Origin: a bacterium | GTDB lineage: Bacteria; Babelota; Babeliae; Babelales; Vermiphilaceae | DNA: 63,307 nt | Direction: 5' to 3' | Assembly: GCA_021818945.1 (NCBI GenBank) | Contig: JAKASV010000004.1 | Coordinates: forward strand, 1-63,307 | Shown: positions 7,404-62,559 of the stretch, one piece after another | Layout of the letters: each line of letters begins with the position of its first letter | How positions within the stretch are numbered: the first letter of the stretch is position 1 | Notes under the pieces: generated by a model | What the model saw: only the letters and a program-made list of their open reading frames with translations | What the model was told of the DNA's origin: nothing | Databases searched by the model: none | Position numbers and translations under genes: made by a program

Positions 7404-8993
7404 TTATTGAACAAAGATAAGGTCCTGTCTGCCAGCAAGCACAAGAGCATCAGTGAGTGTTTGGCGACGTGAACCAAGTATATTGGTAAACTGACGAAAT
7501 ATCACAGCCAGCTCACCTGCGCCATCAATCTCCAAAGTATCAATAAATCTTTGAACATCATAATCATGCAAAAATGGAATAATATGACCCAAATTTTGAA
7601 TAAATGCCCACCTGAATGGTAAATGAGATTCGTAATCTAGAAGGTCATGCAGGCGTCTTACAAGCTCCCCTAAATTTGCCTGGCCCATTGTGAACATTCC
7701 TGGCACGAAACCAGCTGGAAATGCTGCTGGTGCTAGAAAAGGGACGGGAAATGCTGCTGGGGCTGGGTCTGGAAATGTCGCTGGGACTGGAGAAGCTGCA
7801 GGAGCAGGCTCAGATGCATGGGCTGTTGTACGACAGACATGTCCCAAGTATGATCTTCTCTCTCCTAAACAAAGCCAACAAAATTCATACCCACACGTAC
7901 ACGTCATATGATCACATCCGCCATTTTTTTCAACACCTTGATGACAACGAGGGCATTGTTTAGTTCTTGATTGTAACAATAACTGGGTTGCACGTTCGGC
8001 AGCCTGAGGGTCAGAAGCAATTTTGCGATCGGATTCCGCCCGAGCGGCAATAGATGTACGTTCTTCTTCAGCTTGGGCGCATGTCATCCAACGTTCATGG
8101 GCAAAACGACAATCAGAACAATAACGTTGCCGACAACTAGGACATGTAATCGTCTCAGGACGTCCACCAAACTCATAAATATAAGAACAGTTAGCAGTTG
8201 GACATTGTCTAAATTGTGCACCGTGTTGCGTCACAAATTCTTGGAATTGAACATCTCTAAGTGCATTAATCAAAGCAGTGTCATGTGCAATTACTGCAAT
8301 ATCAGTCTCACTAAAAGACCGTCCGCAGCCTGGGTTCGGACAATGCAACGTCCTTGAACTGCGTGACCTGACTGCAACAGTAAGTTGCTCATGCAAACAA
8401 TCTCTACAATATCCATGCCCACAGGATAACTGGCAAAAATTATTTCTAGATTTATCTTCCAAGCATATAAGACAATTTCTAGTAGCCTGTTGGACTGCCT
8501 TGGCAGCTTGAGCAGGCCTTGGTTGAGCAACTGCTGCGGCACGTATTGGAGCTGATGCCCTAGGACGCACTGTTGATGCTGCAGTTGAGCGAGATACTGT
8601 GACAGATGCTGGAGCTGACAACCTAGGAGGTTGAGACTGAACAGCTGGGCGTGGAACTACTGCAACCGGAGCCTGAGGGATATGCGACGTGTCCGACAAT
8701 GGCACTTGCTGCTGCGTAATGATACTTGGTGACTGATGTACTACCGATACTCTAGGCTGTTGAGCCTGAGAATGAGATTGTGACACGGATTGCCGACTTG
8801 TTTCAGCATGAGGTATAGAATGTGTAGGTGTTTGCAATGCCTGGGACCCGTTAGCAGCCTGTCTTGTCCGTCTTGCATCTTCATTAATTTTCTGCATCGC
8901 TTTAGCTACTGCATTAAGTCGCACCCAATCCATCCCATACATCTGACATGAAAAAATTGAAACAATAATAAAAACAATAGCTGAATTTTTCAT
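7404..8993 (-). CDS. Exported RBR (RING-IBR-RING) E3 ubiquitin ligase-like protein
   Basis: The 529-residue product has a signal peptide (1-20, ending QMYG), a Q/P/A/S-rich linker (about 45-170) and a complete RBR module. RING1 spans about C174-C223 (CLIC, CGHGYC, CPNPGC). IBR spans about C264-C305. RING2/Rcat spans about C347-C375, with CPRC, NGGCDHMTC and CWLC. C360 in GGCDHM aligns with the catalytic cysteine of HHARI and Parkin, which accepts ubiquitin as a thioester before transfer to substrate. A Pro/Ala-repeat linker (about 393-430) and a C-terminal domain of about 100 residues follow. Bacteria lack ubiquitin, so export to a eukaryotic host is the sensible reading. After the signal peptide it shares the motif D-[WF]-x-R-L-x-AVA-x-AM with the neighbouring nucleotidyltransferase-like protein. 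Confidence 0.93.
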   Translation of the reverse strand: MKNSAIVFIIVSIFSCQMYGMDWVRLNAVAKAMQKINEDARRTRQAANGSQALQTPTHSIPHAETSRQSVSQSHSQAQQPRVSVVHQSPSIITQQQVPLSDTSHIPQAPVAVVPRPAVQSQPPRLSAPASVTVSRSTAASTVRPRASAPIRAAAVAQPRPAQAAKAVQQATRNCLICLEDKSRNNFCQLSCGHGYCRDCLHEQLTVAVRSRSSRTLHCPNPGCGRSFSETDIAVIAHDTALINALRDVQFQEFVTQHGAQFRQCPTANCSYIYEFGGRPETITCPSCRQRYCSDCRFAHERWMTCAQAEEERTSIAARAESDRKIASDPQAAERATQLLLQSRTKQCPRCHQGVEKNGGCDHMTCTCGYEFCWLCLGERRSYLGHVCRTTAHASEPAPAASPVPATFPDPAPAAFPVPFLAPAAFPAGFVPGMFTMGQANLGELVRRLHDLLDYESHLPFRWAFIQNLGHIIPFLHDYDVQRFIDTLEIDGAGELAVIFRQFTNILGSRRQTLTDALVLAGRQDLIFVQ

Positions 8994-9087
8994 AAATTAT
9001 AACCCCTATTTAGCTGTGAATGACATATAAGAAATAATTTTTTTTATTTATTATCACCTAAAATATAACACAAAAATCGGTTCATTA

Positions 9088-9140: not shown

Positions 9141-11024
9141 TTATCTCAGATTAGCAAATGCTTGCTTGTTCCCTTCTAAGAATGACTGTTCAGTCTCAAA
9201 CAACTGCTTCAAGAATGGCAAATATTTACCATTGAGAGCTTCTATTTCTTTAGGGCCTAAAATTGAATCCGGTGACATCAGCCTCATTTTTTGTAAATCT
9301 CGTAAAGCTCCGTCAGCCTTTAATATTTTGTGGTCTAAAGCATCTAATTCTGAACGCGATCCATGAGAACGGGTAAGCATAGTACGGGATATACGCAAAT
9401 TGGCAAGCTCTTGGGTAAGCTTCTTCTCTTGGTCCTGAAATTCTTCAAGAGTAACCGGAACAGCCCATGTTTGTCTGCGCATCTTCTCTTGCTTGCGTAA
9501 ACGCATACCCATACAGAAATTCATAAGATCTACAAGTCGATTACTCAAAGAAGCACTTATCACACCTTTTTCTGCAAGTGCGCGTGCAATAGCTAACGTG
9601 TTTTGGACCTGTACGTTATACCAGAAGCCCAAATTCGTGAGCAACTGTTCTGCAAAACGATACAATTCACGCTTAATGTCTATTTCTTTTTGCAACTTAC
9701 CTTGAACGACAGAAGATTTATCTGCTTTTTGTAAATAACGAGAAATATCTTCACGCATCTTACAATAGGCAATTTCTTGGCGTCTAGTGGTGTAATTTGG
9801 ATTTTGATAGCGCGATACCCCATTTAAAAATGCTTCACGAGACAATTTATAGCGATTAAAGAGTGCTTTATCACCATACAAACAGGTAATATTACGTGAC
9901 AAGTTTGCAATAGAATCAGATACACGTCGTTCGCGGGCAGAATATGGTTGTGTCATTTCCTGAACAAGACTATCTACCTTAGCGGAAATATCATGGCGAC
10001 TCATACCCTTATATGCAGGATTTTTCAATGCCTTTGCAAGTTCACTGTCAAAGAGCTTTTTGCCCTCTAAATTTGCATATTTTTTATATGCGCCCGATAC
10101 CAAAATATCTAAGTAATGAGCATTCAAATGGCTTGCCAATTCTTCTGGTGTGGTTATAAATAATCTGCTGCCTTCTGTTGGAATATTCTCAAAAGCTCGC
10201 TTCTCTATAGCTTCACGCAATAAAGATTTGATCTGAGAAGGTGATGCATAGCGGGCAAAAAATTTGTTATGAATTGGGCTATTATCAGCCTCATCAAGAC
10301 GCATACCCTTGCCCCCTACATCGGGATGTTCCCCAAGCAAGAAGATTCTATCGGCTAACTCTTGGGAAAACTTGTTAAAAAATGCCACCGCTTGGGTAGT
10401 TTTTTTATCTAAAATTATACCAATTTCAAGGTCAGTAAAAAATCCTGTTTCTTGACGCGCTAAAGACCCAAGGCTAAAAATACAAAAACGAGTAGGAGCG
10501 GGTCCTAGCTTTTTCAAAGTATCACTCACAAGACTATTGATATAAACAATAGTATCATTGGTAATATCCTTCATTAAAGCCGAATATTGAGGTAATGGCT
10601 TAGTTTTTTCTTGATTATAGCGAGCAATATGTTTCTCTCTCAATGCATTTAAGTCTGATCGGTCTTTTTGGATTCTTCCAAATAACTGCTTAACTGCATC
10701 AAATTTTTTGCCCCAATTATGGGTTTTTGCTTTAATTTGATTGCCTGCTGCTGGTGTATAGACTGGAGGACGTTGGGTGACTACAGAGTTTGAAGGCTTC
10801 TTTGAACCAACTGGATTAACTTTTTTTGTCACGCCTCCAACCACAGGAGTAGGTGCTTTGACAGTTGTTTTTTGTGATGCAACTGCGTGCTTACCTATCA
10901 ACTTTGTCATGGCAGCTGCAACCGCATCTAATCTATCAAAATCAACTACCGAATATATAGGGCTGCTCGAAATAACCGCTAGAACACTGACAAGCGATCC
11001 TAAGGTTAAAGATTGTCTTTTCAT
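9141..11024 (-). CDS. Exported nucleotidyltransferase-like protein
   Basis: The 627-residue product has a signal peptide (about 1-25, SSSPIYS) followed by a basic, Pro-rich linker (50-100). A nucleotidyltransferase signature lies at about 184-206: FSLGSLARQETGFFTDLEIG. This resembles the G-S-x(2)-R-x-E-x(5)-D-[LQ]-[DE] motif of the GlnD/DUF294-type polymerase-beta fold, where the acidic pair binds metal. The second acid is Glu rather than Asp. The rest is alpha-helical and charged. Family members move a nucleotide onto protein or RNA; an exported one could modify a host target, but this is inference. GGAGGATTTGTT before the ATG fixes the start. Just after the signal peptide it shares a motif with the adjacent RBR protein. 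Confidence 0.7.
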   Translation of the reverse strand: MKRQSLTLGSLVSVLAVISSSPIYSVVDFDRLDAVAAAMTKLIGKHAVASQKTTVKAPTPVVGGVTKKVNPVGSKKPSNSVVTQRPPVYTPAAGNQIKAKTHNWGKKFDAVKQLFGRIQKDRSDLNALREKHIARYNQEKTKPLPQYSALMKDITNDTIVYINSLVSDTLKKLGPAPTRFCIFSLGSLARQETGFFTDLEIGIILDKKTTQAVAFFNKFSQELADRIFLLGEHPDVGGKGMRLDEADNSPIHNKFFARYASPSQIKSLLREAIEKRAFENIPTEGSRLFITTPEELASHLNAHYLDILVSGAYKKYANLEGKKLFDSELAKALKNPAYKGMSRHDISAKVDSLVQEMTQPYSARERRVSDSIANLSRNITCLYGDKALFNRYKLSREAFLNGVSRYQNPNYTTRRQEIAYCKMREDISRYLQKADKSSVVQGKLQKEIDIKRELYRFAEQLLTNLGFWYNVQVQNTLAIARALAEKGVISASLSNRLVDLMNFCMGMRLRKQEKMRRQTWAVPVTLEEFQDQEKKLTQELANLRISRTMLTRSHGSRSELDALDHKILKADGALRDLQKMRLMSPDSILGPKEIEALNGKYLPFLKQLFETEQSFLEGNKQAFANLR

Positions 11025-12757: not shown

Positions 12758-13606
12758 TTAACGGTGCGTATGATTTTTTGTTGCACACAGTTCATGGGCA
12801 TTGCGTAAGAATGAATCAACCTCTGCATTATTTAAGCCATACTTATGCATAATATGGATGTATTTGTGTGCATCACGACAAAGTACAAACCCCTCTTTTA
12901 TGAACAATCTCTTTTGCGCTCTTGATAAGTTTGGCATGGTCGTTATAGGATACAAAGCATAACGATCTATTAACATCGGAAGGTTCTCTTTAGCAGGATA
13001 AGCCCAACCCAAAAGTTCTATACCTGTACAGGTTGCATAACGAATTGCTTCCGAGGTAAATTTTGTATTGGTAACAATCCATATTTCATGAAATCGTCGT
13101 CTATGACTTGCTTCCAATTCCCAATTTTTTTTCATATCATCAAATCGGGCTTTACAATAAAGAGCGACTTTTACGTCAGTCTTCAAGGACTGAGTATTAT
13201 GAAATTTACACTCAACCATAGATAAGATCGAATCACGCGTCAGAATAACGTCGAGTTCATGCTCTACACAAAATCCTTGTTCAATCTGATCAGTTATAGC
13301 CGTATACCCCTGCATTCTAAAAAGCTCAGCAATAAATTGTTCAAACGGAAAGCCCGCTGGACCTAGATCTAATAATGCACGTTTGATATTATAGCGTGCA
13401 GCAGCCGCTGGATGTTCTTGTTGCAACCGACTCAAAGCATAACCATAAATTTCTTTGGTACTACGCAGAGGAGTCAACTGTTGAATTTCAAAAATCATAC
13501 GCTCGATAAGTCTTTCATCTGCACCGGCACGTTTTAAAGAGGTACGAAATTTTTCAATATCAAATAATTCCTTTTTGCCCGATACTTTGCGCACATAAAA
13601 TTCCAT
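12758..13606 (-). CDS. ATP-cone domain fused to Mrr-like endonuclease domain
   Basis: The 282-residue product starts with an ATP-cone (about 3-85: VRKVSGKKELFDIEKFRTSLKRAG), the nucleotide-sensing domain best known from ribonucleotide reductases and NrdR. A restriction-endonuclease-like domain (about 86-215) follows, with the PD-(D/E)xK core visible as D119 (HELDV) and E132-C-K134 (VECKF). Related two-domain proteins occur in many bacteria and are thought to be Mrr-type nucleases gated by nucleotide binding, perhaps for DNA repair or defence. No methyltransferase gene is adjacent. AAGGGAGAACG precedes the ATG. The combination is clear; the role is not established. Confidence 0.85.
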   Translation of the reverse strand: MEFYVRKVSGKKELFDIEKFRTSLKRAGADERLIERMIFEIQQLTPLRSTKEIYGYALSRLQQEHPAAAARYNIKRALLDLGPAGFPFEQFIAELFRMQGYTAITDQIEQGFCVEHELDVILTRDSILSMVECKFHNTQSLKTDVKVALYCKARFDDMKKNWELEASHRRRFHEIWIVTNTKFTSEAIRYATCTGIELLGWAYPAKENLPMLIDRYALYPITTMPNLSRAQKRLFIKEGFVLCRDAHKYIHIMHKYGLNNAEVDSFLRNAHELCATKNHTHR

Positions 13607-27589: not shown

Positions 27590-29191
27590 ATGAAATTAAT
27601 ACGCACAATAAGTCTTGTCTGCCTCATTATGGTCACATGCGTCCTGGCCATGGACCAAGAAGAACAGGCAATTCTCAATTCAGGACAATTTGCAGTGATG
27701 CCACTTGAAGTTTTACGGTTGGTTGCAGACGCCATGGAACCAGATCCAGAGTGTCAATGTGACTGCTGCGGCGACTCCATTTTAGACTGGAAGGACATTA
27801 ACGCTGTACAAAGCACCTGTAAGCACTTGCGTCAATATTTTATTCCCGATGATCGGAACATCTTATTAGATTTTTCCACAAAAAGACAAGAAACTGAAAC
27901 GGTTGAAGCTTTTTTGAATCGTGTTCTGGTTCATATGCTCAAATGTAAAATGTACCCACACGAAAAGCCAATTATTCTTAAGCTGAATGAGAATAGACTG
28001 TCTGAAGATCTAGTAGCAGTGGCTCGATTCTTTAAAAATATCGACACCCTTGGCCTATCAAAAAGAATTATTGACCTTCAGCTTGCGGACAACAACCTGA
28101 CCAGTATTGCAGACAACATTGTATTATGTAATAAACTCGGGTATCTAGATCTGGCCAATAACCAGTTATCGACTGGTGATGTTGCTAAATTATGCACGAT
28201 TTCAACCCTTATGGATCTAAACCTTTCACACAACAACTTGCACCAGCTCCCTGATACTCTTGGAATGCTTGTCAATCTTGAATATTTACAAATTGACAGC
28301 AATGATCTATTTCAGCTACCTGATAGCATAGGTTCATTGGCAAAGTTACATCAAATAAACCTTTCTTCGAATCATTTGCCTTCACGAGAGATCGACAAGG
28401 TTTGCGCCCTTGAATCAATCGATGATGTAAATCTTTTTAATAATCCAATTACAGAACTTCCCAGCTCGATAAATACAAGAAAAGATCTTGATACCCATTC
28501 TTTGACTGTCCTTTCGCTAGATGTCAGCCAATTACCAATGACAGAAATCGCCAAAATTTTTCGTCTTTCTCAGTTAACCGATCTAGTTTTATATGAATAC
28601 AATCAAGCCACACTGCCAGTTGAAATTGGCAATCTTAAAAAACTTACTAGTTTATGGATATATGGCAACAATGGACCGGTAGTATTACAAGGCTCAGAAT
28701 TAGCAAAATTAGCAAAACTTGATAACCTCCAGTCTCTGGCATTTCTAAACATTCATATAGCTGTACTTCCTGAAGAAATTTTACGCTTACCACATCTTTC
28801 CTCTCTTACCCTCGTACACATCGAATTACCAATAGATGAATTGACAAAGATAGGAGACTGTTCCAATCTCGTATCTCTTGATCTTTCAGCAAATGGCCTG
28901 GTGAGCCTTCCAAATAGTATCAGCCGTTTGCAAAAACTAAAGATTCTAGACCTAGAAGCCAATAACTTGCCTGTTGAAGAAATTGCCAAAGTCGGCACCT
29001 TAGCGAATCTTGAAATATTAAGGATCAATTTTAATAACCTAGTTTCATTGCCACCACAATTATCACAACTTAAAAAACTCAAAAGACTCGATGTATCAAG
29101 CAATCCGATTGAACAAGATGATGAAACCTTTGCCCAATTATTCAGTCAACTACCTAAAAATCTTGAGATCATTGGATTACCCGAAGCTTAA
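27590..29191 (+). CDS. Exported F-box-like plus leucine-rich repeat protein
   Basis: The 533-residue product has a signal peptide (1-20, ending VLA) and then an F-box-like segment (about 37-85: MPLEVLRLVADAM...WKDINAVQSTCKHLRQYF). This is interrupted by a cysteine-rich insert, CQCDCCGD (55-62). From about 155 to 525 it has leucine-rich repeats of 22-24 residues (LxxLxLxxNxLxxLPxxIxxL). In eukaryotes F-box/LRR proteins are substrate adaptors of SCF ubiquitin ligases, with the F-box binding Skp1. An exported bacterial version may redirect host ubiquitination, as known for Legionella F-box effectors. The LRR call is firm; the F-box call is moderate. GGGGAGTCTTTT precedes the ATG. Confidence 0.88.
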   Translation: MKLIRTISLVCLIMVTCVLAMDQEEQAILNSGQFAVMPLEVLRLVADAMEPDPECQCDCCGDSILDWKDINAVQSTCKHLRQYFIPDDRNILLDFSTKRQETETVEAFLNRVLVHMLKCKMYPHEKPIILKLNENRLSEDLVAVARFFKNIDTLGLSKRIIDLQLADNNLTSIADNIVLCNKLGYLDLANNQLSTGDVAKLCTISTLMDLNLSHNNLHQLPDTLGMLVNLEYLQIDSNDLFQLPDSIGSLAKLHQINLSSNHLPSREIDKVCALESIDDVNLFNNPITELPSSINTRKDLDTHSLTVLSLDVSQLPMTEIAKIFRLSQLTDLVLYEYNQATLPVEIGNLKKLTSLWIYGNNGPVVLQGSELAKLAKLDNLQSLAFLNIHIAVLPEEILRLPHLSSLTLVHIELPIDELTKIGDCSNLVSLDLSANGLVSLPNSISRLQKLKILDLEANNLPVEEIAKVGTLANLEILRINFNNLVSLPPQLSQLKKLKRLDVSSNPIEQDDETFAQLFSQLPKNLEIIGLPEA

Positions 29192-53324: not shown

Positions 53325-54527
53325 TTATGTTAATTGATTTTTTCGGTCGACATAAAATTTAAGATTGGTTTTTGCGCGTTCATCGTCGGGATTTACCTCC
53401 AAAGCTTTCCTGGCGGCTGCTTCGCCTTTTTCATATTGCCCTACATACCAAGCAGAAATGGCAAGAAGGTCGTATCGTGTAAAGAGATACAATTCTTTTT
53501 CTATATCTAGATTATCTGGACAGGGTAATTCACAGGCTCTATTTGCAAAAAGATAGGTCAACGCATTATCATGCATAAGATAATAATGTTTCGCAATACG
53601 CACCAGTGGCTCAGCCCTGAGAGGATTAAGTGCAAAGGCCTTCAAGTAATATGAGAGTGCAAGTGCCCAGGTTCGTTGTTCGCCATTGCTTGATCTTTCA
53701 AGTGCGCAGGCCAGCTGATACACCTCTCTGAAGGTCTCTTTTCCCCACAGAGAACCATAGCGCTCTCTAATTTTTTTGTCTTCTGCATCTTTTTGTGGCT
53801 TGAATAGAGTGCCAGTTGATAATCCATGGGTATTATAAAAATATAAGGCATAGTAGCCATCTATTTTTTTAAATTGAGCACCACCTTCAACCGCTCTTAG
53901 CCACATTTCCCAATCGCCTGAATATTTGTAAGTCGCATCAAAAAGGCCAAACATATCATGCAATGTTCTACGCCACATAGGATTATTGCATGGCCAACTT
54001 TCATGCATAATCTCTTTAGAAAAATGGGGGGAAGGAGAGAATTTAGCCCCTGTGTGTTTTTCAAATGTTTCATTAGCCACAAGAGTATAATATCTGTCAG
54101 AGTACACAAGCATGATATCAGGATTGCAATCCAATTCTGCAGCATGAATTTGATAGCAATTATGTGCTAATCTATCATCAAGATTTGCATTGGTAATATA
54201 TTCACCCCTGCTCATAGTAATTGCCATATTCCAAACTCCATAGAGCCCCGGATCTTTATCAAGTCGTTTGTAGATGATATTGGGAAATTTAGTCATATAC
54301 TGTTTAATGACTGGCTCTTCATTGTCAGGTGAATTGGCATTTATCATGATCAGTTCACACTGATCAAAGATGGTCTGCCGCGTTATATCAGCTAAAAAGC
54401 CCTCAATAAACTCATCGCCTTTATACACCGATGTTATGATGCTTATTTTTGGGTCTATGCAAAAAATCATTTGCATAGACAACAACACCATCAAACTACC
54501 ATACAGGATAAAATTTTTCTTGTTCAT
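53325..54527 (-). CDS. Exported GT2 glycosyltransferase with TPR-like tail
   Basis: I chose the ATG at 54527 (400 residues): AAGGAG lies 7 nt upstream and a signal peptide (about 1-23, ending QMIFC) follows. The GT2 domain (about 27-230) has ISIITSVYKGDEF, LIMINANSPDNEE and the NANLDDRL metal/donor site, and it resembles spore-coat/cell-wall GT2 enzymes. The C-terminal 150 residues are helical TPR-like repeats (YYLKAFALNPLRAEPLVRIAKHY, GEAAARKALEVNPDDERAKTNL). It closely matches the N-terminal part of the next gene upstream, so the two are paralogs. It is last in a four-gene minus operon. Export implies acceptors outside the cytosol. Confidence 0.88.
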   Translation of the reverse strand: MNKKNFILYGSLMVLLSMQMIFCIDPKISIITSVYKGDEFIEGFLADITRQTIFDQCELIMINANSPDNEEPVIKQYMTKFPNIIYKRLDKDPGLYGVWNMAITMSRGEYITNANLDDRLAHNCYQIHAAELDCNPDIMLVYSDRYYTLVANETFEKHTGAKFSPSPHFSKEIMHESWPCNNPMWRRTLHDMFGLFDATYKYSGDWEMWLRAVEGGAQFKKIDGYYALYFYNTHGLSTGTLFKPQKDAEDKKIRERYGSLWGKETFREVYQLACALERSSNGEQRTWALALSYYLKAFALNPLRAEPLVRIAKHYYLMHDNALTYLFANRACELPCPDNLDIEKELYLFTRYDLLAISAWYVGQYEKGEAAARKALEVNPDDERAKTNLKFYVDRKNQLT

Positions 54528-54566
54528 ACATATACTCCTTCTAGATGTTGTGCCATCCATGTTAAT

Positions 54567-56624
54567 TTACAAATTCTCTAACTCTAACCCCCAAAAATCC
54601 AATCCGGCAAAGTAATCTTTTCCATATTGTTTAACCCACTGTTTCATCTGATCTGCTCGCCATTGCTCTTGAGCATCAAACAACTCTGCATCAAAAAAGT
54701 CATATTTTTGGAACCAACACGTGGGGACATTTAGCAATTGTTCATGGCTGGTATCCATACTAAAGGCATAGCGCTGATTTATAACATCTATCGCTTTTTC
54801 TGGGGTACGTATACGTTCTAAGCATTTATACCATGACTGTTTTTTTACTACATTTGACCAATTGATAAATTGGAAATGAAGCATTCCGTAGTTATCACCA
54901 TCTGTATATCGCAACTTGCCTGATAAATTATTTGGTGTCCTGCCTGTATGAATAAATTCTGAGCTATAGCAACATTGACCATCATCACAGAATGCAAAAT
55001 CTTTATAGCGATACCTCCAGCCTTCATCGGCACGATAAAAGTCAGGACTCTTCCAGAGATGTATCCAATTGAGCATCAATCGATCTCCCGGCTGCAAGGC
55101 ATCGATCTGTTTGGCAATCCAATTATCTTGTAAGCAATTTGCAGTTAACATCTCATCGGCATCTATGACAATAAAATGGGTACCACCAATTTCGCGTCCT
55201 GCTTTTAGTAATGCATTACGGTCGCCAGGCTCATCACGTTTCCAGATTTTTTTTCTAATAATTTTTTCTACCCTATACTTTGTAGCAACTGATTTTACGA
55301 TTGCTACGCTATTATCATCTGATGCATCATCCAAATATACTATAGCATCAGTATATAAAGACAAAGCTCTCAGGCATTGCTCTATTATTTTTGATTCGTT
55401 ACGTGCAGGAATAAGACCAACGACTTTCTTTTTTGAGGCAATTTTATGTTCAATATAAAACTTCAAATTATTCTTTAAATGTTGATCATTCGGATGATAT
55501 TCAAGCGCTTTCTTGGTCGCCTCTAATCCTTCTTGAAATGCATTCACATACCAGGCTGAAATTCCAAGAAGATCCCAGCGCGTAAAATCATAGAGCTCTT
55601 TTTCTACATCTTTTTCGTCCGGACAAGGCAACTGACAGGCATTACGAGCAAAAAAGTACCCTAATGCAGTATTACCAAATGAACAGTAATGTTGTGCAAT
55701 ACGCACTAAAGGTTCTGCACGTTTTGGATTCAAGCTATAAGCCTTGAGGTAATACGTAAGTGCAAGGGGCCATGTATCGTGCGCTCCTTGACAAGATCTA
55801 TCAAACCTGTTAGCCCAGTCATAGTAGCTTGCAAAATTGTTGCTCACCCAGAAATAACTGTATCTGGCCCAGATCATCTCATCTTCTTTACCTTTAATGT
55901 CTTTTAATGTTGCATTTTTGGAAAGACCGTTAGGGTTACAGTAAAAGAGAGCATAGTACCCATCAATTTTTTTAAATTTTGCGCCACATTCGACCGCTCT
56001 GAGCCACATGTCCCAATCGCCGGATATTTTATATCTGACATCAAAGTATCCATACTGATCATGCAATGATCTACGCCACATGGGGTTATTAGATGGCCAG
56101 CAGGTAGACATGATCTCTTTGCAAAACTGAGGAAATGGTGGAAATTTTGTACCCGTCTGGTTTTCAAATGTTTCGTTTGGCACGGTCGTTTCATAACGAT
56201 CTGAGTATACCAGCATGATCTCCGGATCTTTATCAAGCTCTGCCGCATGTACCTCATAACAATTGTAAGCAAGTCTGTCGTCAAGATTGGCATTTGTTAT
56301 ATATTTGCCAGAGCCTATTCTGATCGCTAAGTTCCATACCCCATAGAGCCCTGGATCAAAATCTAGTCGCTTGTAAATAATATTTGGGTATGTTGCCATA
56401 TACTTTTTAATGACAGGTTCCTCAGCCCCGGGCGAATTGGCATTGATCATGATTAATTCACATTGATCAAATATAGTTTGGCGGGTAATATCTGCCAAAA
56501 AGCCTTCAATAAATTGGTCGCCATTATAGACAGACGTAATAATGGTAATTTTAGGTTCAAAGCACAATGTATTCTGAAGCATCATGATGAGTGCTGCAAG
56601 AAAACACTGAAGGATCTTGTTCAT
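54567..56624 (-). CDS. Exported protein with two GT2 domains around TPR-like repeats
   Basis: I chose the ATG at 56624 (685 residues; AGGGATAATACT upstream), which opens a signal peptide (about 1-21, QNTLC). First GT2 domain (about 25-225): ITIITSVYNGDQF, NANLDDRL. TPR-like helices span about 240-395. The second GT2 domain (about 400-640) has VGLIPARNES, YLDDASDDNS and VIDADEML, i.e. an intact DxD-type site. The first half is a paralog of the downstream protein; the second is a different GT2 subtype (the SPBc2-type/TPR-linked family). Two intact active sites in one chain suggest sequential addition of two sugars to one acceptor. It starts 4 bp after the preceding stop. Confidence 0.88.
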   Translation of the reverse strand: MNKILQCFLAALIMMLQNTLCFEPKITIITSVYNGDQFIEGFLADITRQTIFDQCELIMINANSPGAEEPVIKKYMATYPNIIYKRLDFDPGLYGVWNLAIRIGSGKYITNANLDDRLAYNCYEVHAAELDKDPEIMLVYSDRYETTVPNETFENQTGTKFPPFPQFCKEIMSTCWPSNNPMWRRSLHDQYGYFDVRYKISGDWDMWLRAVECGAKFKKIDGYYALFYCNPNGLSKNATLKDIKGKEDEMIWARYSYFWVSNNFASYYDWANRFDRSCQGAHDTWPLALTYYLKAYSLNPKRAEPLVRIAQHYCSFGNTALGYFFARNACQLPCPDEKDVEKELYDFTRWDLLGISAWYVNAFQEGLEATKKALEYHPNDQHLKNNLKFYIEHKIASKKKVVGLIPARNESKIIEQCLRALSLYTDAIVYLDDASDDNSVAIVKSVATKYRVEKIIRKKIWKRDEPGDRNALLKAGREIGGTHFIVIDADEMLTANCLQDNWIAKQIDALQPGDRLMLNWIHLWKSPDFYRADEGWRYRYKDFAFCDDGQCCYSSEFIHTGRTPNNLSGKLRYTDGDNYGMLHFQFINWSNVVKKQSWYKCLERIRTPEKAIDVINQRYAFSMDTSHEQLLNVPTCWFQKYDFFDAELFDAQEQWRADQMKQWVKQYGKDYFAGLDFWGLELENL

Positions 56625-56628
56625 AGTA

Positions 56629-57864
56629 TTATCCCTGTAATTTCTGGTCCACATACATTTTAAATAGCTCTTGTAGATGTTGATCATCCGGTTTATGTTC
56701 AAGTGCCTTTTTGACAGCCCATTCGCCTTTAGCAAACTCACCAATTTTTAACCCGCATTGGGCAACGATATCATAGCGTTCATACACATACATTTCTTTT
56801 TCTATAAATAAGATCTCATGCTCAGGGTATGGTATTTCACAGGCCTGTATGGCAAAGAGATAGGCAATAGCATAATCATGACAGGCAAGATAATGTCTCG
56901 CTATATGTATAAGTGGCTCAATACGGCCTTGTCTTGTTGAAAATGCCTTGAGATAATACCACATTGCTAACGACCAGTCATAACACTTTTTCTTATCGGT
57001 ATCTTTTGCGGCAAGGATCTCAATAGTACCTGCTATGCGAACTAAGGTTTCATAATTTTCTTCTTCCCATGAGGGCAGCTTGCTACGTAATTCATAAAAA
57101 CGTAATGCATTTTCAAAATCACCAAGACATGCATAGGTTTGACCCAGATAGAAAGAAGTACGAGCATCGGTAGGATTCTCTGCATATGCTTTTAACAAAA
57201 AACCAAGATCCCTAGCCCATCGTTTACGCGATTTATCGTCACCATATTGTGTTGAGTTCCATTCAAAAAATATGCCAGCTGGAACTGACATGACTGAAGG
57301 ACTTTCCAGATATTCATGCACAGGACTTTTAAACCGACAATAACTCTCTCTCCTCATCAATCGATCAACGTAGTACTCAAGTTGTCCGTTACGCACCATA
57401 CGAATGAGATATGAAGCATGGCAATCTTCTTTGTTTCTTTCGCAGAATTTCAGTAGCTCTGCGCCATTGCGCAAAAGCCATTCTGCATCAGGCATCATAA
57501 TAAAAGTTGCTTCTGGAAAATGTTTATCAACAAGATCAAGCGCCCTGTTACGGGACGTTGCAAAATCAACAAAATTCTCTTGCTCTATAGCATAATTGGT
57601 TATATTGTGAGCGCTAAAAAATTGGCGTACCTTTTCGATCGTATCGTCAGTAGACCCCGTGTCAAATATCAAAAAAGAATCGATACCCCCTTGCACCATC
57701 GGTGTCAATGTATAATCAATGACAGGAGCCTCATTCTTGATCATAAGTGCAACCACCAATAACGGATCCTTCTTAAGCACTGGAGCTTGGCTATAACTTA
57801 AAAAGAATGTACAGCATGTACAGGCGATTATAATATGCATACATGTGTATAATTGTTTATTCAT
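56629..57864 (-). CDS. Exported GT2 glycosyltransferase with TPR-like tail
   Basis: The 411-residue product has GAGGAGAAATTA before the ATG and a signal peptide (about 1-26, ending SYSQA). The GT2 domain (about 34-215) has VALMIKNEAPVIDY, FDTGSTDDT and MMPDAEWLL with an intact acidic pair. The C-terminal TPR-like helices (about 225-405) include repeats such as DARTSFYLGQTYACLGDFENA. GT2-TPR proteins of this kind occur in amoeba-associated bacteria and giant viruses, in my recollection of the family. It lies second in the operon, 24 bp after the GT32 gene and 4 bp before the double-GT2 gene. Confidence 0.88.
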   Translation of the reverse strand: MNKQLYTCMHIIIACTCCTFFLSYSQAPVLKKDPLLVVALMIKNEAPVIDYTLTPMVQGGIDSFLIFDTGSTDDTIEKVRQFFSAHNITNYAIEQENFVDFATSRNRALDLVDKHFPEATFIMMPDAEWLLRNGAELLKFCERNKEDCHASYLIRMVRNGQLEYYVDRLMRRESYCRFKSPVHEYLESPSVMSVPAGIFFEWNSTQYGDDKSRKRWARDLGFLLKAYAENPTDARTSFYLGQTYACLGDFENALRFYELRSKLPSWEEENYETLVRIAGTIEILAAKDTDKKKCYDWSLAMWYYLKAFSTRQGRIEPLIHIARHYLACHDYAIAYLFAIQACEIPYPEHEILFIEKEMYVYERYDIVAQCGLKIGEFAKGEWAVKKALEHKPDDQHLQELFKMYVDQKLQG

Positions 57865-57888
57865 TAATTTCTCCTCACAATTGTATAT

Positions 57889-59919
57889 CTACTTTACCCA
57901 TGAAGATTCCCATAAGTGCAATGCAAAGGTCTCGGGTCTAAGACTTTTGATAACATTTTCTAGCGGTCGAGGCTCAGGACGTACCGGATACCATGGAAAG
58001 AAATAACAGGCAGGGAAAATTACCGTACGACTCGTTAATATTGCATCAGTCATGATCTCTGCTTTTACACATGCAGTAAGATGCCCTGGACCAGTCCTGT
58101 CAACTACATATTGCCAGCCTTCTTTGCCTTTTTGGGCGCCGCGCAGATTATCAATGCAACGTTTTAATATAGGATGCTCAGGAGCAGAACCTATAATAGA
58201 GTTGCCGATAACAGCGGTTGTTCCTTCAAGCCCTGCGTAAAAATCGCAACAATGATGGAACACGTCCATAGGTGCAATACACTCAAAATCAGAATCAGAA
58301 TATACACCCCCAAATTTGTACAAAATTTCATACCGTGCGATATCAGATTTTTCTCCATACGTCAGCGCAGCATCAAACTGAGCTCTATTTTTCAGCCCAA
58401 GTTCATCTATTTCTTTTTGCGTCCAGAGTCTATATTCCCACTCAGGATGATGAATGAGCCATGTTTGTTGCCAAGCTTTATATTTATCAGGCAATTCACT
58501 GCCTAGCCAGATATGATGAATAATTTTTGGAATTCGTGGCGCATCAAGGTATTGTACATCGGTTATTGTGTATTTTTCATAGATATCTTTAATTTTTTTC
58601 AAAAATGGATCAGTCTCAATCGTAGTATAATTGTAGGCAAAACCATGCTTCATCGAATCATGAAAATCAACACCAAAACCGGCTGGAATCCTAGGGTCCC
58701 GTTTTTGGCTTTCGTTATGTTGTGTCTCTTTGCGTTTGATATAAAAATCTAAATTGCTCAAAAGATGCGTATTATAGGGTTGTGCAATGAGTGCCTTTTT
58801 GAGTGCCATCTGACCAATTTCAAATTCCTGCAAATACCAACCTGTAATACCAAGGATATCAAAGGGAGTATATTCATAGGCATGGCGCTCAATCGACATA
58901 CAGTCATGGTCTGGGTAGGTGATAAGGCTAGCTTGACGTGCAAATAAAAATGCAAGATGATTATTGCCACATTTTAGATAATGCTGTGCTATTTTGACCA
59001 GCGGTTCTGCACGCGTTGACCTGATCTCATGTGCCTTTAGATAATAATACTCTTGCAACTGCCAGATATCTTTATCCTCAGTGACGCTATCAAGTAACTT
59101 TGCTAATCGATAGACAGCAAGATAGTCATGTTCTTTATTGCCTTCCATGGTACTACGCATTGTATAATAGGCGTACGCCGACTTAAGATCGCCTAGTGCT
59201 TCATAGGTACAGGCCAAGTCAAATACGAGCTTTGGATCGTGTCGATCTCTATTATAGGCCTTGAGAAGGTTGACGAGCGTGTTCGTTAATGATTGTTGAG
59301 CATGAGAAATACCCCACTGAATTTTATTCCATTCAAAAAATACCTCTGAAGGTGCCTTCTCGATCTGTATTTTTTGTGGAGCAGGGTCGATCATGCCTTT
59401 AAATTCTACTACGCTTGTAACACGGACCAAACAAGGCATATAAAAATCCTCATCCATACCATGAATGAATAGCTTTATCCAATAGACCGGACTTTGATTA
59501 TCTTTTACCGAGACACAAAAGTCTATAAGTGATTTCACATTGTGCAGTAACCACTGACCGTTGCTTAGCAGTACAAAGTCAGCATCAGGAAAAAGTTTTT
59601 TAGTCTCTGATACTATGTAGTTATAGCGAGCCCCTTGATCATCAAATTTTTTAGTATCGATTTTGACCGATGCTCCTTGGGCAAACAAAAATTCTTTAGC
59701 CTTTTCAGTAGTCGTGTCTGATGGGTCCGAGCACAACAAAAAATTGTTGATACCAGAATCGATGAGTGGCTTGAGAGTATCCTGTATAGCCACTTGTTGA
59801 TTATCGATAAGTATGGCAGAAACCATAATGGGAATTTCTGTCCGGGCCCAAGAAATACAACTTATAGATAAAAAAGCCATACTCATAGGTCGTATACCAG
59901 GAGAATAAAGATACTTCAC
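57889..59919 (-). CDS. Exported protein: inactive-looking GT2, TPR-like repeats and GT32 domain
   Basis: I chose GTG at 59919 (676 residues; AAAGGA 7 nt upstream, with an adjacent in-frame TTG as alternative). It has a signal peptide (about 1-25). The N-terminal domain (about 28-215) aligns with the GT2 domain of the next gene, but the metal-site PDAEW is SNGQW and DTGSTDDT is SDPSDTTT, so it looks inactive. TPR-like helices (about 220-410) follow. The C-terminal GT32 domain (about 460-676) has PKIIHHIWLGSELPDKY and the DxD in YSDSDFEC, as in OCH1-type and glycosyltransferase-toxin-related sugar transferases. GT32 enzymes move hexoses to glycans or protein. First gene of the minus operon. Confidence 0.88.
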   Translation of the reverse strand: MKYLYSPGIRPMSMAFLSISCISWARTEIPIMVSAILIDNQQVAIQDTLKPLIDSGINNFLLCSDPSDTTTEKAKEFLFAQGASVKIDTKKFDDQGARYNYIVSETKKLFPDADFVLLSNGQWLLHNVKSLIDFCVSVKDNQSPVYWIKLFIHGMDEDFYMPCLVRVTSVVEFKGMIDPAPQKIQIEKAPSEVFFEWNKIQWGISHAQQSLTNTLVNLLKAYNRDRHDPKLVFDLACTYEALGDLKSAYAYYTMRSTMEGNKEHDYLAVYRLAKLLDSVTEDKDIWQLQEYYYLKAHEIRSTRAEPLVKIAQHYLKCGNNHLAFLFARQASLITYPDHDCMSIERHAYEYTPFDILGITGWYLQEFEIGQMALKKALIAQPYNTHLLSNLDFYIKRKETQHNESQKRDPRIPAGFGVDFHDSMKHGFAYNYTTIETDPFLKKIKDIYEKYTITDVQYLDAPRIPKIIHHIWLGSELPDKYKAWQQTWLIHHPEWEYRLWTQKEIDELGLKNRAQFDAALTYGEKSDIARYEILYKFGGVYSDSDFECIAPMDVFHHCCDFYAGLEGTTAVIGNSIIGSAPEHPILKRCIDNLRGAQKGKEGWQYVVDRTGPGHLTACVKAEIMTDAILTSRTVIFPACYFFPWYPVRPEPRPLENVIKSLRPETFALHLWESSWVK

Positions 59920-59960
59920 CAACGAATCCTTTCTTGAAAAAACTCAAACTTCTTTCTTCT

Positions 59961-59978
59961 TGCACCATGGTGCATGCA
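59961..59978. promoter_or_regulatory. Perfect palindrome between divergent glycosyltransferase operons
   Basis: TGCACCATGGTGCA (59961-59974) is a perfect 14-bp palindrome, overlapped by TGCATGCA (59971-59978). It lies 42 bp before the start of the minus operon in the only gap between the two operons, where a dimeric repressor or activator could act on both. No promoter elements were certain. Confidence 0.4.
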
Positions 59979-60126
59979 CACATTACCAAATTGTAATCAG
60001 CTGTCAAGCATTTTTTGAACAGAAATAATTTCAGAAATTACCCTTGCTTGAACCAAAATTTAAAATTATATTGGGTTTGATTTATAAAAAAAGGTCGATG
60101 GTAACATTTAAAAAGAGGTTTTACGT

Positions 60127-61050
60127 ATGAGCAGATCGGATAATAGCTTGGTGGGGTATCTGTTGTTACTCTTAACTACTTGTGCAATGCAAAGTGAATC
60201 AGCGCAACATAATCCTATCTATTTTTGCACAGCTGCCGATTCGCGCTATTATTGGCAGGCACTGAACCTTATTGGTAGCATCCAAAAACTGCATTTTAAG
60301 GAACTTGGTGAAATTGCAGTCTACAATCTAGGGTTAACCGATGAACAACGAAGCACACTCAACCGAATACAAAAAGTCAAGGTATACGAAGTCGAAAAAA
60401 CCAATCCAGATATCATAACTCCCTTTGTCACCGATTCTGGCGGCCGACGTGTACCGGGATGGTTTGCATGGAAGCCGGTCATTATCAAACAAAGCCTAGA
60501 TCGATTCCCCCATGTTTTGTATATGGATGCCGGACATGTGGTCTTGCGGCCACTGCACAAATTATTTGAATACATCAACTATCATGGCTATTTTATGTGC
60601 GACTGCGGATTTATGCTCAAGCCTCGATTGACAAAATTTGTTATACAAGCATTTAATCTTGAAAGTGGTGCACGCCGTTGGATATATGAGCAGGGAATCT
60701 CGATTGATGCCAGCAAGCTTGGCTTTTCGCGAGACAGTTTTGTCTACAAAGAGTTTGTTCTGCAAGCATATGAACTGAGTAAGAATTTACATTACTTTGA
60801 GGATGATGGCAGCGCAGAAATGGGTTTTGGACAAGCTCGCCATGATCAGACAGTGTTAAGCATCTATGCCTTATTACTACATTTAGATATTTTGTCATTA
60901 AAAAGCCCTACGCATTTAAAGCTTCAGGATGAAATATATGACCTTTGTATGACCTGGCGTCCCGATTGTCTGTCGAGCGATACGCATATTTATCATTGTC
61001 GACTTGGGTGGGCACCGGATTTTACCGGCGATATTGTGTGGAATAAATAA
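60127..61050 (+). CDS. Exported GT8-like glycosyltransferase (DUF1647-like)
   Basis: The 307-residue product has a signal peptide (about 8-26) and a GT-A domain. Signatures: NPIYFCTAADSRYYWQALNLIGSI at the start, YNLGLTDEQ, FAWKPVIIKQSL, and YMDAGHVVL, where the DxD region reads DAG as in DUF1647-type GT8 relatives. A late HDQTVLSIYAL matches the conserved GT8 D-Q. The donor sugar is unknown. AAAAAGAGG lies upstream of the ATG. It is the first gene of the plus operon, 12 bp before the next one. Confidence 0.82.
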   Translation: MSRSDNSLVGYLLLLLTTCAMQSESAQHNPIYFCTAADSRYYWQALNLIGSIQKLHFKELGEIAVYNLGLTDEQRSTLNRIQKVKVYEVEKTNPDIITPFVTDSGGRRVPGWFAWKPVIIKQSLDRFPHVLYMDAGHVVLRPLHKLFEYINYHGYFMCDCGFMLKPRLTKFVIQAFNLESGARRWIYEQGISIDASKLGFSRDSFVYKEFVLQAYELSKNLHYFEDDGSAEMGFGQARHDQTVLSIYALLLHLDILSLKSPTHLKLQDEIYDLCMTWRPDCLSSDTHIYHCRLGWAPDFTGDIVWNK

Positions 61051-61062
61051 AAAGAGGATTAT

Positions 61063-62559
61063 GTGAATAAAAAATATCTCATTCTTTTGATGATATATGC
61101 AGGATACATACAAACTCACCTGATTGAAAAACCACTTGTCATCATCGTGCCCTCATTTAATAATAATGAAAAACATGAAGATACTGAGCGGTATAGATTA
61201 AATTTAGATTCCATCTTCAGTCAAGAATATTCCAATTATCGCGTCATCTATATTGATGACTGCTCAACCGATGGCACAGCAGATAGGGTTGAAGGATATG
61301 TACAAGAAAAAGGTCAAAAACATCGTTTCACTCTCATTAAAAACATGAAACGATGGGGGCCAAGCAGAAATCGCTATGTAGGCGTTCATCAATGTGATGA
61401 TGATGAGATAGTCATGTTCCTTGATGGAGATGATTGGTTCGCACATCGATCAGTACTGAAACTAATCAATGAGATCTACAATGATCCTGACATCTGGTTT
61501 ACATATAGCCATTTCAGACATTCACCTGACGATGGTACATTAAGTGGAGGGATTCAGATACCAGAAGATGTCGTGAACAACAATAGTTATAGAAGTTATG
61601 GATGGCATTATCATTCACTCAAAACATTTTATGCATGGCTTTTTAAACGTGTTCATCTAGAAGATCTTTTGTATCAAGGCAATTTTTTACCTATCGCAAG
61701 CGACATGGTAGAAACATTCCCCTTAGTAGAAATGAGCGGTGGAAGATTCAAATTTATTGAGGATGTTCTCTATATTGCATCGGTCCACCAAAGCAACGAA
61801 ATGAAGATAGCCGGATGGAACTTGTTTCAAACAATGTACCAACATATTGTAACTATGAAACCCTACAAGCCTTTAATCGAAAAGCCTAACACATCTAGTC
61901 AGACATTGGATCGCAGTGTCGATTGTATCTGGTTCTGCCATACCACGAATTTTGAACAGTTAATCGAACCTTTGCAAGACTTTACAAAATATATGTGCGG
62001 ATTGGGCACCCTGTACCTTATACTGGATAATGATATCTCAGCAGAAAGCGTAGCTAATCTACTAGTCCCATTAGCACAAAATTTTAACTGTCATCTCATA
62101 ATTAAAAGTCTGAGTATATTGACACACCAAGATTTTTTTGAGGCTCTGAGTGATCACCTTGTATTAACATCAGAAGATATTGCTCCATGCATGCCTATTG
62201 ATCTAAAGCGTATAAGCAGCTTTTTAGACAAAACTCACGCATATGCTTTCTATTGTTCAAACTCTGCAGAACAATTGCAAACTCGTCATGACATTCCCTG
62301 TTTTCATATTACATTTGACCTGCAAGAATCTGACCGCATGTATATTTTTCAGTGTGGAATCTCTAAAAAAGCATTCAGATCTTTTAATACATTCAACTGT
62401 AGTATAGTTAATAAAGCAACGTTCGAAGATATTATAGCACATTGTCAAGGTGACAGTGTCGAAGATTATATAAAACATATGGAGGCCATTACACCGCAAG
62501 AATCGAGGATTGCTTGTGTCTATGAATTGCCTCATACAGTATCTATGGATCTTATATGA
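61063..62559 (+). CDS. Exported GT2 glycosyltransferase with unknown C-terminal domain
   Basis: The 498-residue product starts at GTG 61063 (AGAGGA 4 nt upstream) and has a signal peptide (about 1-19). The GT2 domain (about 24-260) has VIIVPSFNNNEK, YIDDCSTDGT, GPSRNRYVG and FLDGDDWF with intact acidic residues. The last 220 residues (about 280-498) form a separate alpha/beta domain with no family I recognise; it contains IWFCHTTNFEQLI and LYLILDND, which could be a second, divergent glycosyltransferase fold. The stop TGA overlaps the next start (ATGA). Confidence 0.85.
   Translation: MNKKYLILLMIYAGYIQTHLIEKPLVIIVPSFNNNEKHEDTERYRLNLDSIFSQEYSNYRVIYIDDCSTDGTADRVEGYVQEKGQKHRFTLIKNMKRWGPSRNRYVGVHQCDDDEIVMFLDGDDWFAHRSVLKLINEIYNDPDIWFTYSHFRHSPDDGTLSGGIQIPEDVVNNNSYRSYGWHYHSLKTFYAWLFKRVHLEDLLYQGNFLPIASDMVETFPLVEMSGGRFKFIEDVLYIASVHQSNEMKIAGWNLFQTMYQHIVTMKPYKPLIEKPNTSSQTLDRSVDCIWFCHTTNFEQLIEPLQDFTKYMCGLGTLYLILDNDISAESVANLLVPLAQNFNCHLIIKSLSILTHQDFFEALSDHLVLTSEDIAPCMPIDLKRISSFLDKTHAYAFYCSNSAEQLQTRHDIPCFHITFDLQESDRMYIFQCGISKKAFRSFNTFNCSIVNKATFEDIIAHCQGDSVEDYIKHMEAITPQESRIACVYELPHTVSMDLI

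Follow-up and report, generated by a model that had tools for sequence, protein, structure and literature searches.

A candidate exported RBR ubiquitin ligase with a complete active site and an orphan C-terminal domain, and its relatives across the phylum Dependentiae

The question raised by the 63,307-nucleotide stretch of contig JAKASV010000004.1 analysed here (assembly GCA_021818945.1; hereafter the window) is what a gene for an RBR ubiquitin ligase, a class treated as eukaryotic and exemplified by Parkin and LUBAC (linear ubiquitin chain assembly complex), would be doing in a bacterium. The source genome is a Dependentiae metagenome-assembled genome (MAG) with 61 contigs totalling 1.25 Mb and a completeness of 95%; the phylum is mostly uncultured, and its cultured members live inside single-celled hosts. 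The presence of an RBR ligase gene with an export-like N-terminus is confirmed as a real observation, supporting the earlier interpretation of the gene from its letters and translation (the sequence-only reading) as that of an exported RBR ligase. The encoded protein combines a complete RBR module with a signal-peptide-like N-terminus, and we estimate at roughly three in four the probability that it leaves the cell and would serve as a ubiquitin ligase of the RING/HECT-hybrid type within a protist host.

The modules stand in the order RING1, IBR and Rcat (RING2) according to Pfam, sequence matches in the PDB, the predicted model and profiles built from the family itself. Pfam IBR profiles match above their cut-offs, ARIH2 (E 6e-21) and ARIH1 (E 7e-16) rank first in sequence among solved structures, and AlphaFold2 predicted local distance difference test (pLDDT) scores are 84-97 across residues 171-380, going down to 69 at residues 381-390. 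Together with the Pfam IBR and Rcat matches and the PDB match, the full set of zinc ligands, found in all three modules from the letters and the alignment columns, bears out the claim that the three zinc modules of eukaryotic RBRs are present. Cys360 in GGCDHM, proposed in the sequence-only reading as the catalytic cysteine, does align by sequence with that of RBRs, the alignment columns also hold the other members of the triad, His362 and Glu370, and Trp373 is intact. A failure of the Rcat fold or of this cysteine to align had been named as grounds for abandoning the assignment; both align by sequence, and in fold comparison the modelled Rcat is part of the stretch that aligns with several solved RBRs. 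The helices modelled at residues 239-256, 305-327 and 329-343 match the RING1-IBR and IBR-RING2 helices that, in the available text of PMC9834252, form the allosteric and donor ubiquitin sites of RBRs. Ubiquitin binding there is predicted, the first helix being probably equivalent to the allosteric one.

The hydropathy heuristic agrees with the signal peptide previously proposed, which in our reading may be cleaved after G20; a lipoprotein is disfavoured because Cys16 is a Trp in the database protein P0002. The start codon that yields this export signal is the likely one, given the Shine-Dalgarno-like element ahead of it. At the other end, the last 94 residues, modelled alone with one relative, appear as a five-helix domain (best pLDDT 84.1, predicted template modelling score 0.77; pLDDT of the five models from 44.9 to 84.1). 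This domain has no Pfam family, no second copy in the source genome and no fold match in structure comparison, and a database sequence search, at its sensitivity, returned only the domain itself. Identity to P0002, 85-92% up to residue 392 (89-92% in the RBR core), drops to 52% across the second linker and to 43% across the C-terminal domain, which might therefore be a targeting or substrate-choosing part under change, even if two sequences cannot show selection. The domain could also itself restrain the enzyme: with Pfam matches admitted up to E 1, the window protein indeed shows no UBA-like, Ariadne or UBL module, and the constitutive activity suggested earlier from their absence stays unproven, with support neither way.

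Table 1. Features of the RBR-type gene and its product, in window coordinates (pLDDT and helices from the predicted model)
Feature	Position	Strand	Basis
Complete gene (529 aa; RBR-type ligase, export-like at its N-terminus)	7404..8993	-	ORF (open reading frame) list, Pfam, PDB sequence match to ARIH2/ARIH1
Shine-Dalgarno-like AGGGG, 9 nt ahead of the ATG	9003..9007	-	Read from sequence
Residues 1-20, signal-peptide-like (K2, hydrophobic stretch, G20)	8934..8993	-	Hydropathy heuristic 3.30; model helix 2-19
Residues 21-171, helix 23-48, then Pro/Ala/Ser/Gln-rich linker	8481..8933	-	pLDDT <50 over most of 54-159
RING1, residues 174-223, predicted E2-binding module	8325..8474	-	Pfam, PDB match, alignment, fold comparison, family profiles
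RING1-IBR helix, residues 239-256	8226..8279	-	AlphaFold2 model
IBR, residues 264-305	8079..8204	-	PF01485 41.4 bits over 8079-8258; family profiles
IBR-Rcat helices, residues 305-343 (305-327, 329-343)	7965..8081	-	AlphaFold2 model
Rcat (RING2), residues 347-387	7833..7955	-	PF22191 and PF22605 above cut-offs; PDB match; family profiles
Catalytic Cys360 codon	7914..7916	-	Alignments
Residues 392-435, Pro/Ala linker	7689..7820	-	pLDDT <50 for 392-437
Orphan C-terminal domain of five helices, residues 436-529, plus stop codon; proposed to bind substrate	7404..7688	-	Model; no Pfam, sequence or fold match

In RBR ligases, RING1 binds E2~ubiquitin and the Rcat Cys accepts the ubiquitin and then passes it on (PMC9834252, available text). 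By analogy, the window protein would be exported by Sec, as its N-terminus suggests, would then pass the outer membrane, probably by way of a secretin-type system, and, in line with the biology of the phylum, would be released into the host cell. There, a UbcH7-like host E2 charged with ubiquitin would dock on RING1, the ubiquitin would form a thioester with Cys360, and it would be handed on, with His362 as the base, to a host protein that the C-terminal helical domain would select. The proposed export route derives from two secretin-domain ORFs in the source genome (the secretin profile also matches 6 of 14 control genomes) and from the available text on Babela massiliensis, in which signal-peptide ankyrin proteins are taken as secreted into the amoeba cytoplasm and type II is the only secretion system detected (PMC4378268). 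Four further ORFs of the source genome belong to the ATP/ADP translocase family.

The gene is one of a set. The IBR profile matches 15 of 101 genomes of the phylum (10 of the 68 with at least 90% completeness and at most 5% contamination) and none of the 14 controls, a genome so counted not necessarily having an IBR because the profile also matches Rcats. The loci examined in these 15 genomes contain 23 distinct ORFs of at least 120 aa matching the core profile, not counting a stop-interrupted short fragment in G032. Module calls relied on profiles built from ten proteins that are close relatives, so that an odd RING1 could be missed, and gave 12 ORFs with RING1-IBR-Rcat, seven with RING1-like and Rcat modules without an IBR, three with IBR-Rcat, in which the family profiles detected no RING1, and one with RING1-IBR only. 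The IBR-less ORFs (two at L012 and one each at L049, L050, L051, L013 and L016) keep the catalytic Cys, and their span from the last RING1-like module to the Rcat is 41-71 residues long and holds at most one Cys, whereas an IBR needs more; L016 shows two RING1-like parts, and L013 perhaps likewise. The database protein P0057 is similarly IBR-less, with Pfam RING profiles and IBR_1/IBR_2 (the latter on the Rcat) above cut-offs. To our knowledge these would be, if truly ligases, the first RBRs dispensing with an IBR, and they would reveal which parts of the RBR mechanism are really needed.

Downstream of the Rcat, Pfam ankyrin repeats are found in the L049 and L033 proteins, which those of L050 and L015 appear to resemble. 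Export-like N-termini occur in 20/23 ORFs, with values of 1.77-3.30 on a rough hydropathy rule that has neither baseline nor fixed cut-off; of the other three, one is cut by the end of its contig, another lacks an early Met and the third lacks a Lys or Arg ahead of the hydrophobic stretch. The rarity of RBRs in bacteria, as put forward in the sequence-only reading, hence needs context, since RBR-like ORFs recur within Dependentiae. RBRs in Legionella relatives may also have been the subject of preprint-level work. No RBR of Dependentiae is described in the available text of PMC4378268, PMC6561590, PMC9834252, PMC12445743, PMC11354881, PMC12591485, PMC4327156 and PMC8003559, or in the other published literature searched, preprints excluded.

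Several aspects weigh against an active ligase delivered to a host. The RING1 of the window protein falls below the Pfam RING cut-offs, so that the profile search proposed earlier succeeded for IBR and Rcat but not for RING. Export is called by a heuristic, a zinc protein so rich in Cys would have to withstand the periplasm, and secretins serve pili too. Neither E2 nor ubiquitin was found in the source genome, a weak absence given that neither search matched any control, and one that only fits the use of host ubiquitin. Across the family, the catalytic Cys is present in 22/22 Rcats; the His is kept in 14 (8/22 without it), Glu in six, with Gln in three more (16/22 without Glu), and in 6/22 the zinc position of C372 or of C375 is not a Cys, implying that not every member need be active. 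The eight Rcats devoid of the catalytic His, as well as the single ORF of 23 devoid of an Rcat, are what would be expected from catalytically dead RBR-fold scaffolds that bind host E2 or ubiquitin and block host ligases; for the window protein this is nonetheless unlikely, considering that its triad, zinc ligands and Trp373 are intact, and that its core stays nearly identical to that of P0002 while the C-terminus drifts.

Equally improbable is a role in or on the bacterium itself, for instance as a zinc-rich periplasmic or surface protein whose link to ubiquitin has been lost. Only the N-terminal export signal points outward, and no delivery machine is tied to the protein, which would suit such a role; against it, the ubiquitin-transfer triad is intact, a feature for which we know of no use without ubiquitin, and the genome yielded no ubiquitin or E2 in the searches mentioned above. 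Finally, the eukaryotic fold and the draft state of the 61-contig genome might hint at a eukaryotic contig or gene misassembled into a bacterial bin, an explanation we hold to be very remote in view of the unbroken intronless ORF, its Shine-Dalgarno-like start, its bacterial neighbour genes, the 23 ORFs across 15 genomes of the phylum, and the L033 relative flanked by DNA polymerase I and PriA genes on a contig titled Candidatus Dependentiae.

Regarding the origin of this bacterial ligase family, the first tree comprised 68 rows (20 bacterial, of which L030_72 and L005 are two pieces of one protein, and 48 eukaryotic), rows spanning <120 core positions being excluded, which removes the IBR-less proteins. 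The second tree has 76 rows: 10 that were long or partial (3 bacterial and 7 eukaryotic) gave way to 18 new ones (1 and 17, respectively). P0002, P0003, P0004 and P0055 were labelled bacterial in advance for their closeness to the window protein, and 'eukaryotic' rows are all other matches, not a full RBR sampling. Bacterial and eukaryotic rows split at 98% in the Shimodaira-Hasegawa-like approximate likelihood ratio test (SH-aLRT) in the first tree, and in the second (18 versus 58 rows) with bootstrap 95 and SH-aLRT 76, the split recurring in 96% of 200 bootstrap trees; this second tree has several long branches, and its bootstrap had not settled. Comparison with the 58 eukaryotic rows named no donor. 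A single ancient acquisition, with later loss and change, would fit the trees, and several separate acquisitions may be compatible with them as well.

Scanning ~85,000 species with two family-derived patterns returned seven loci, four titled Dependentiae or Babeliales, two assigned to phylum contigs (G032:C72 and G061:C70) and one in a Competibacteraceae MAG; as the patterns derive from Dependentiae, the scan is no measure of RBRs in other phyla. The last locus (L039, bases 2-628 of a contig titled Competibacteraceae) is an ORF with a partial IBR, an Rcat and hydrophobic stretches, beside bacterial-looking ORFs, and may possibly reflect either an RBR outside Dependentiae or misbinning. A broader scenario, tentative and with chances somewhat short of even, is that Dependentiae took one RBR from a eukaryote long ago and developed it into an exported, modular effector family, with a catalytic head and fast-changing tails (orphan helical domains, ankyrin repeats), including RING1-Rcat ligases without an IBR.

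Among known systems, ARIH2 (TRIAD1) and ARIH1 (HHARI), of the Ariadne class, share with the window protein the RING1-IBR-Rcat order and the GGC catalytic site, whereas the latter is bacterial and has an export-like N-terminus and an orphan C-terminal domain. After the catalytic Cys it shows C-x-C, in contrast with C-x2-C in ARIH2; C-x-C is also found in the Ariadne-domain database proteins P0060, P0068 and P0069, and many of the database matches carry PF21235/PF19422. Its core is thus Ariadne-like, but with the UBA-like and Ariadne domains unmatched it is not filed in that subfamily. Parkin, HOIP, HOIL-1 and RNF216 have the RBR core and triad in common with it and match in sequence and fold, whereas none of their extra domains was matched by Pfam. 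U-box effectors are bacterial E3 effectors that use host ubiquitin. NEL, SidC, Lug14 and the Simkania RING ligase are, in the available accounts, bacterial and exploit host ubiquitin, as proposed here, but have other folds or a plain RING; NEL is delivered by type III secretion and Lug14 by Dot/Icm. SidC, too, is delivered by Dot/Icm. Closer in taxonomy, the Babela massiliensis set (one RING-finger protein, an F-box protein, C19 hydrolases and Ulp1-like AAA proteins) belongs to the same phylum, is ubiquitin-related and has several members predicted as secreted; unlike the present case, the available text gives one RING protein and no RBR, with IBR and 'E3 ligase' occurring 0 times in the main text (PMC4378268).

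The sequence-only finding holds: the bacterium encodes an RBR whose active site is complete, with an export-like signal at one end and an orphan tail at the other. It belongs to a set, IBR-less forms included, that is found across the phylum, and its activity and delivery are predicted. A phylum-wide set of exported RBRs would be a natural experiment on which regulators can be lost, on the dispensability of the IBR and on the retargeting of ubiquitin by tail change, and it would offer a concrete handle on host control by Dependentiae.

Genes in the neighbourhood of the RBR ORF are bacterial: the adjoining one encodes a penicillin-binding transpeptidase, and Mur ligase, proton pyrophosphatase and MutL genes lie farther away. 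At 9141-11024 (-), a DUF294-type nucleotidyltransferase, matched in 1/101 phylum genomes (its own), has an N-terminus read as export-like and shares with the RBR protein the motif RLxAVAxAM just past the signal peptide, the two being the only sites in the genome. Other ORFs of the window include a tandem pair of WD40 proteins (26-1276 and 1348-2511, +) whose first 34 residues are identical and export-like, a leucine-rich-repeat protein (27590-29191, +), an Mrr_cat nuclease domain preceded by an ATP-cone-like part under its cut-off (12758-13606, -), and a cluster of glycosyltransferase ORFs (53325-62559), one of them with a DXD type of sugar-binding motif.
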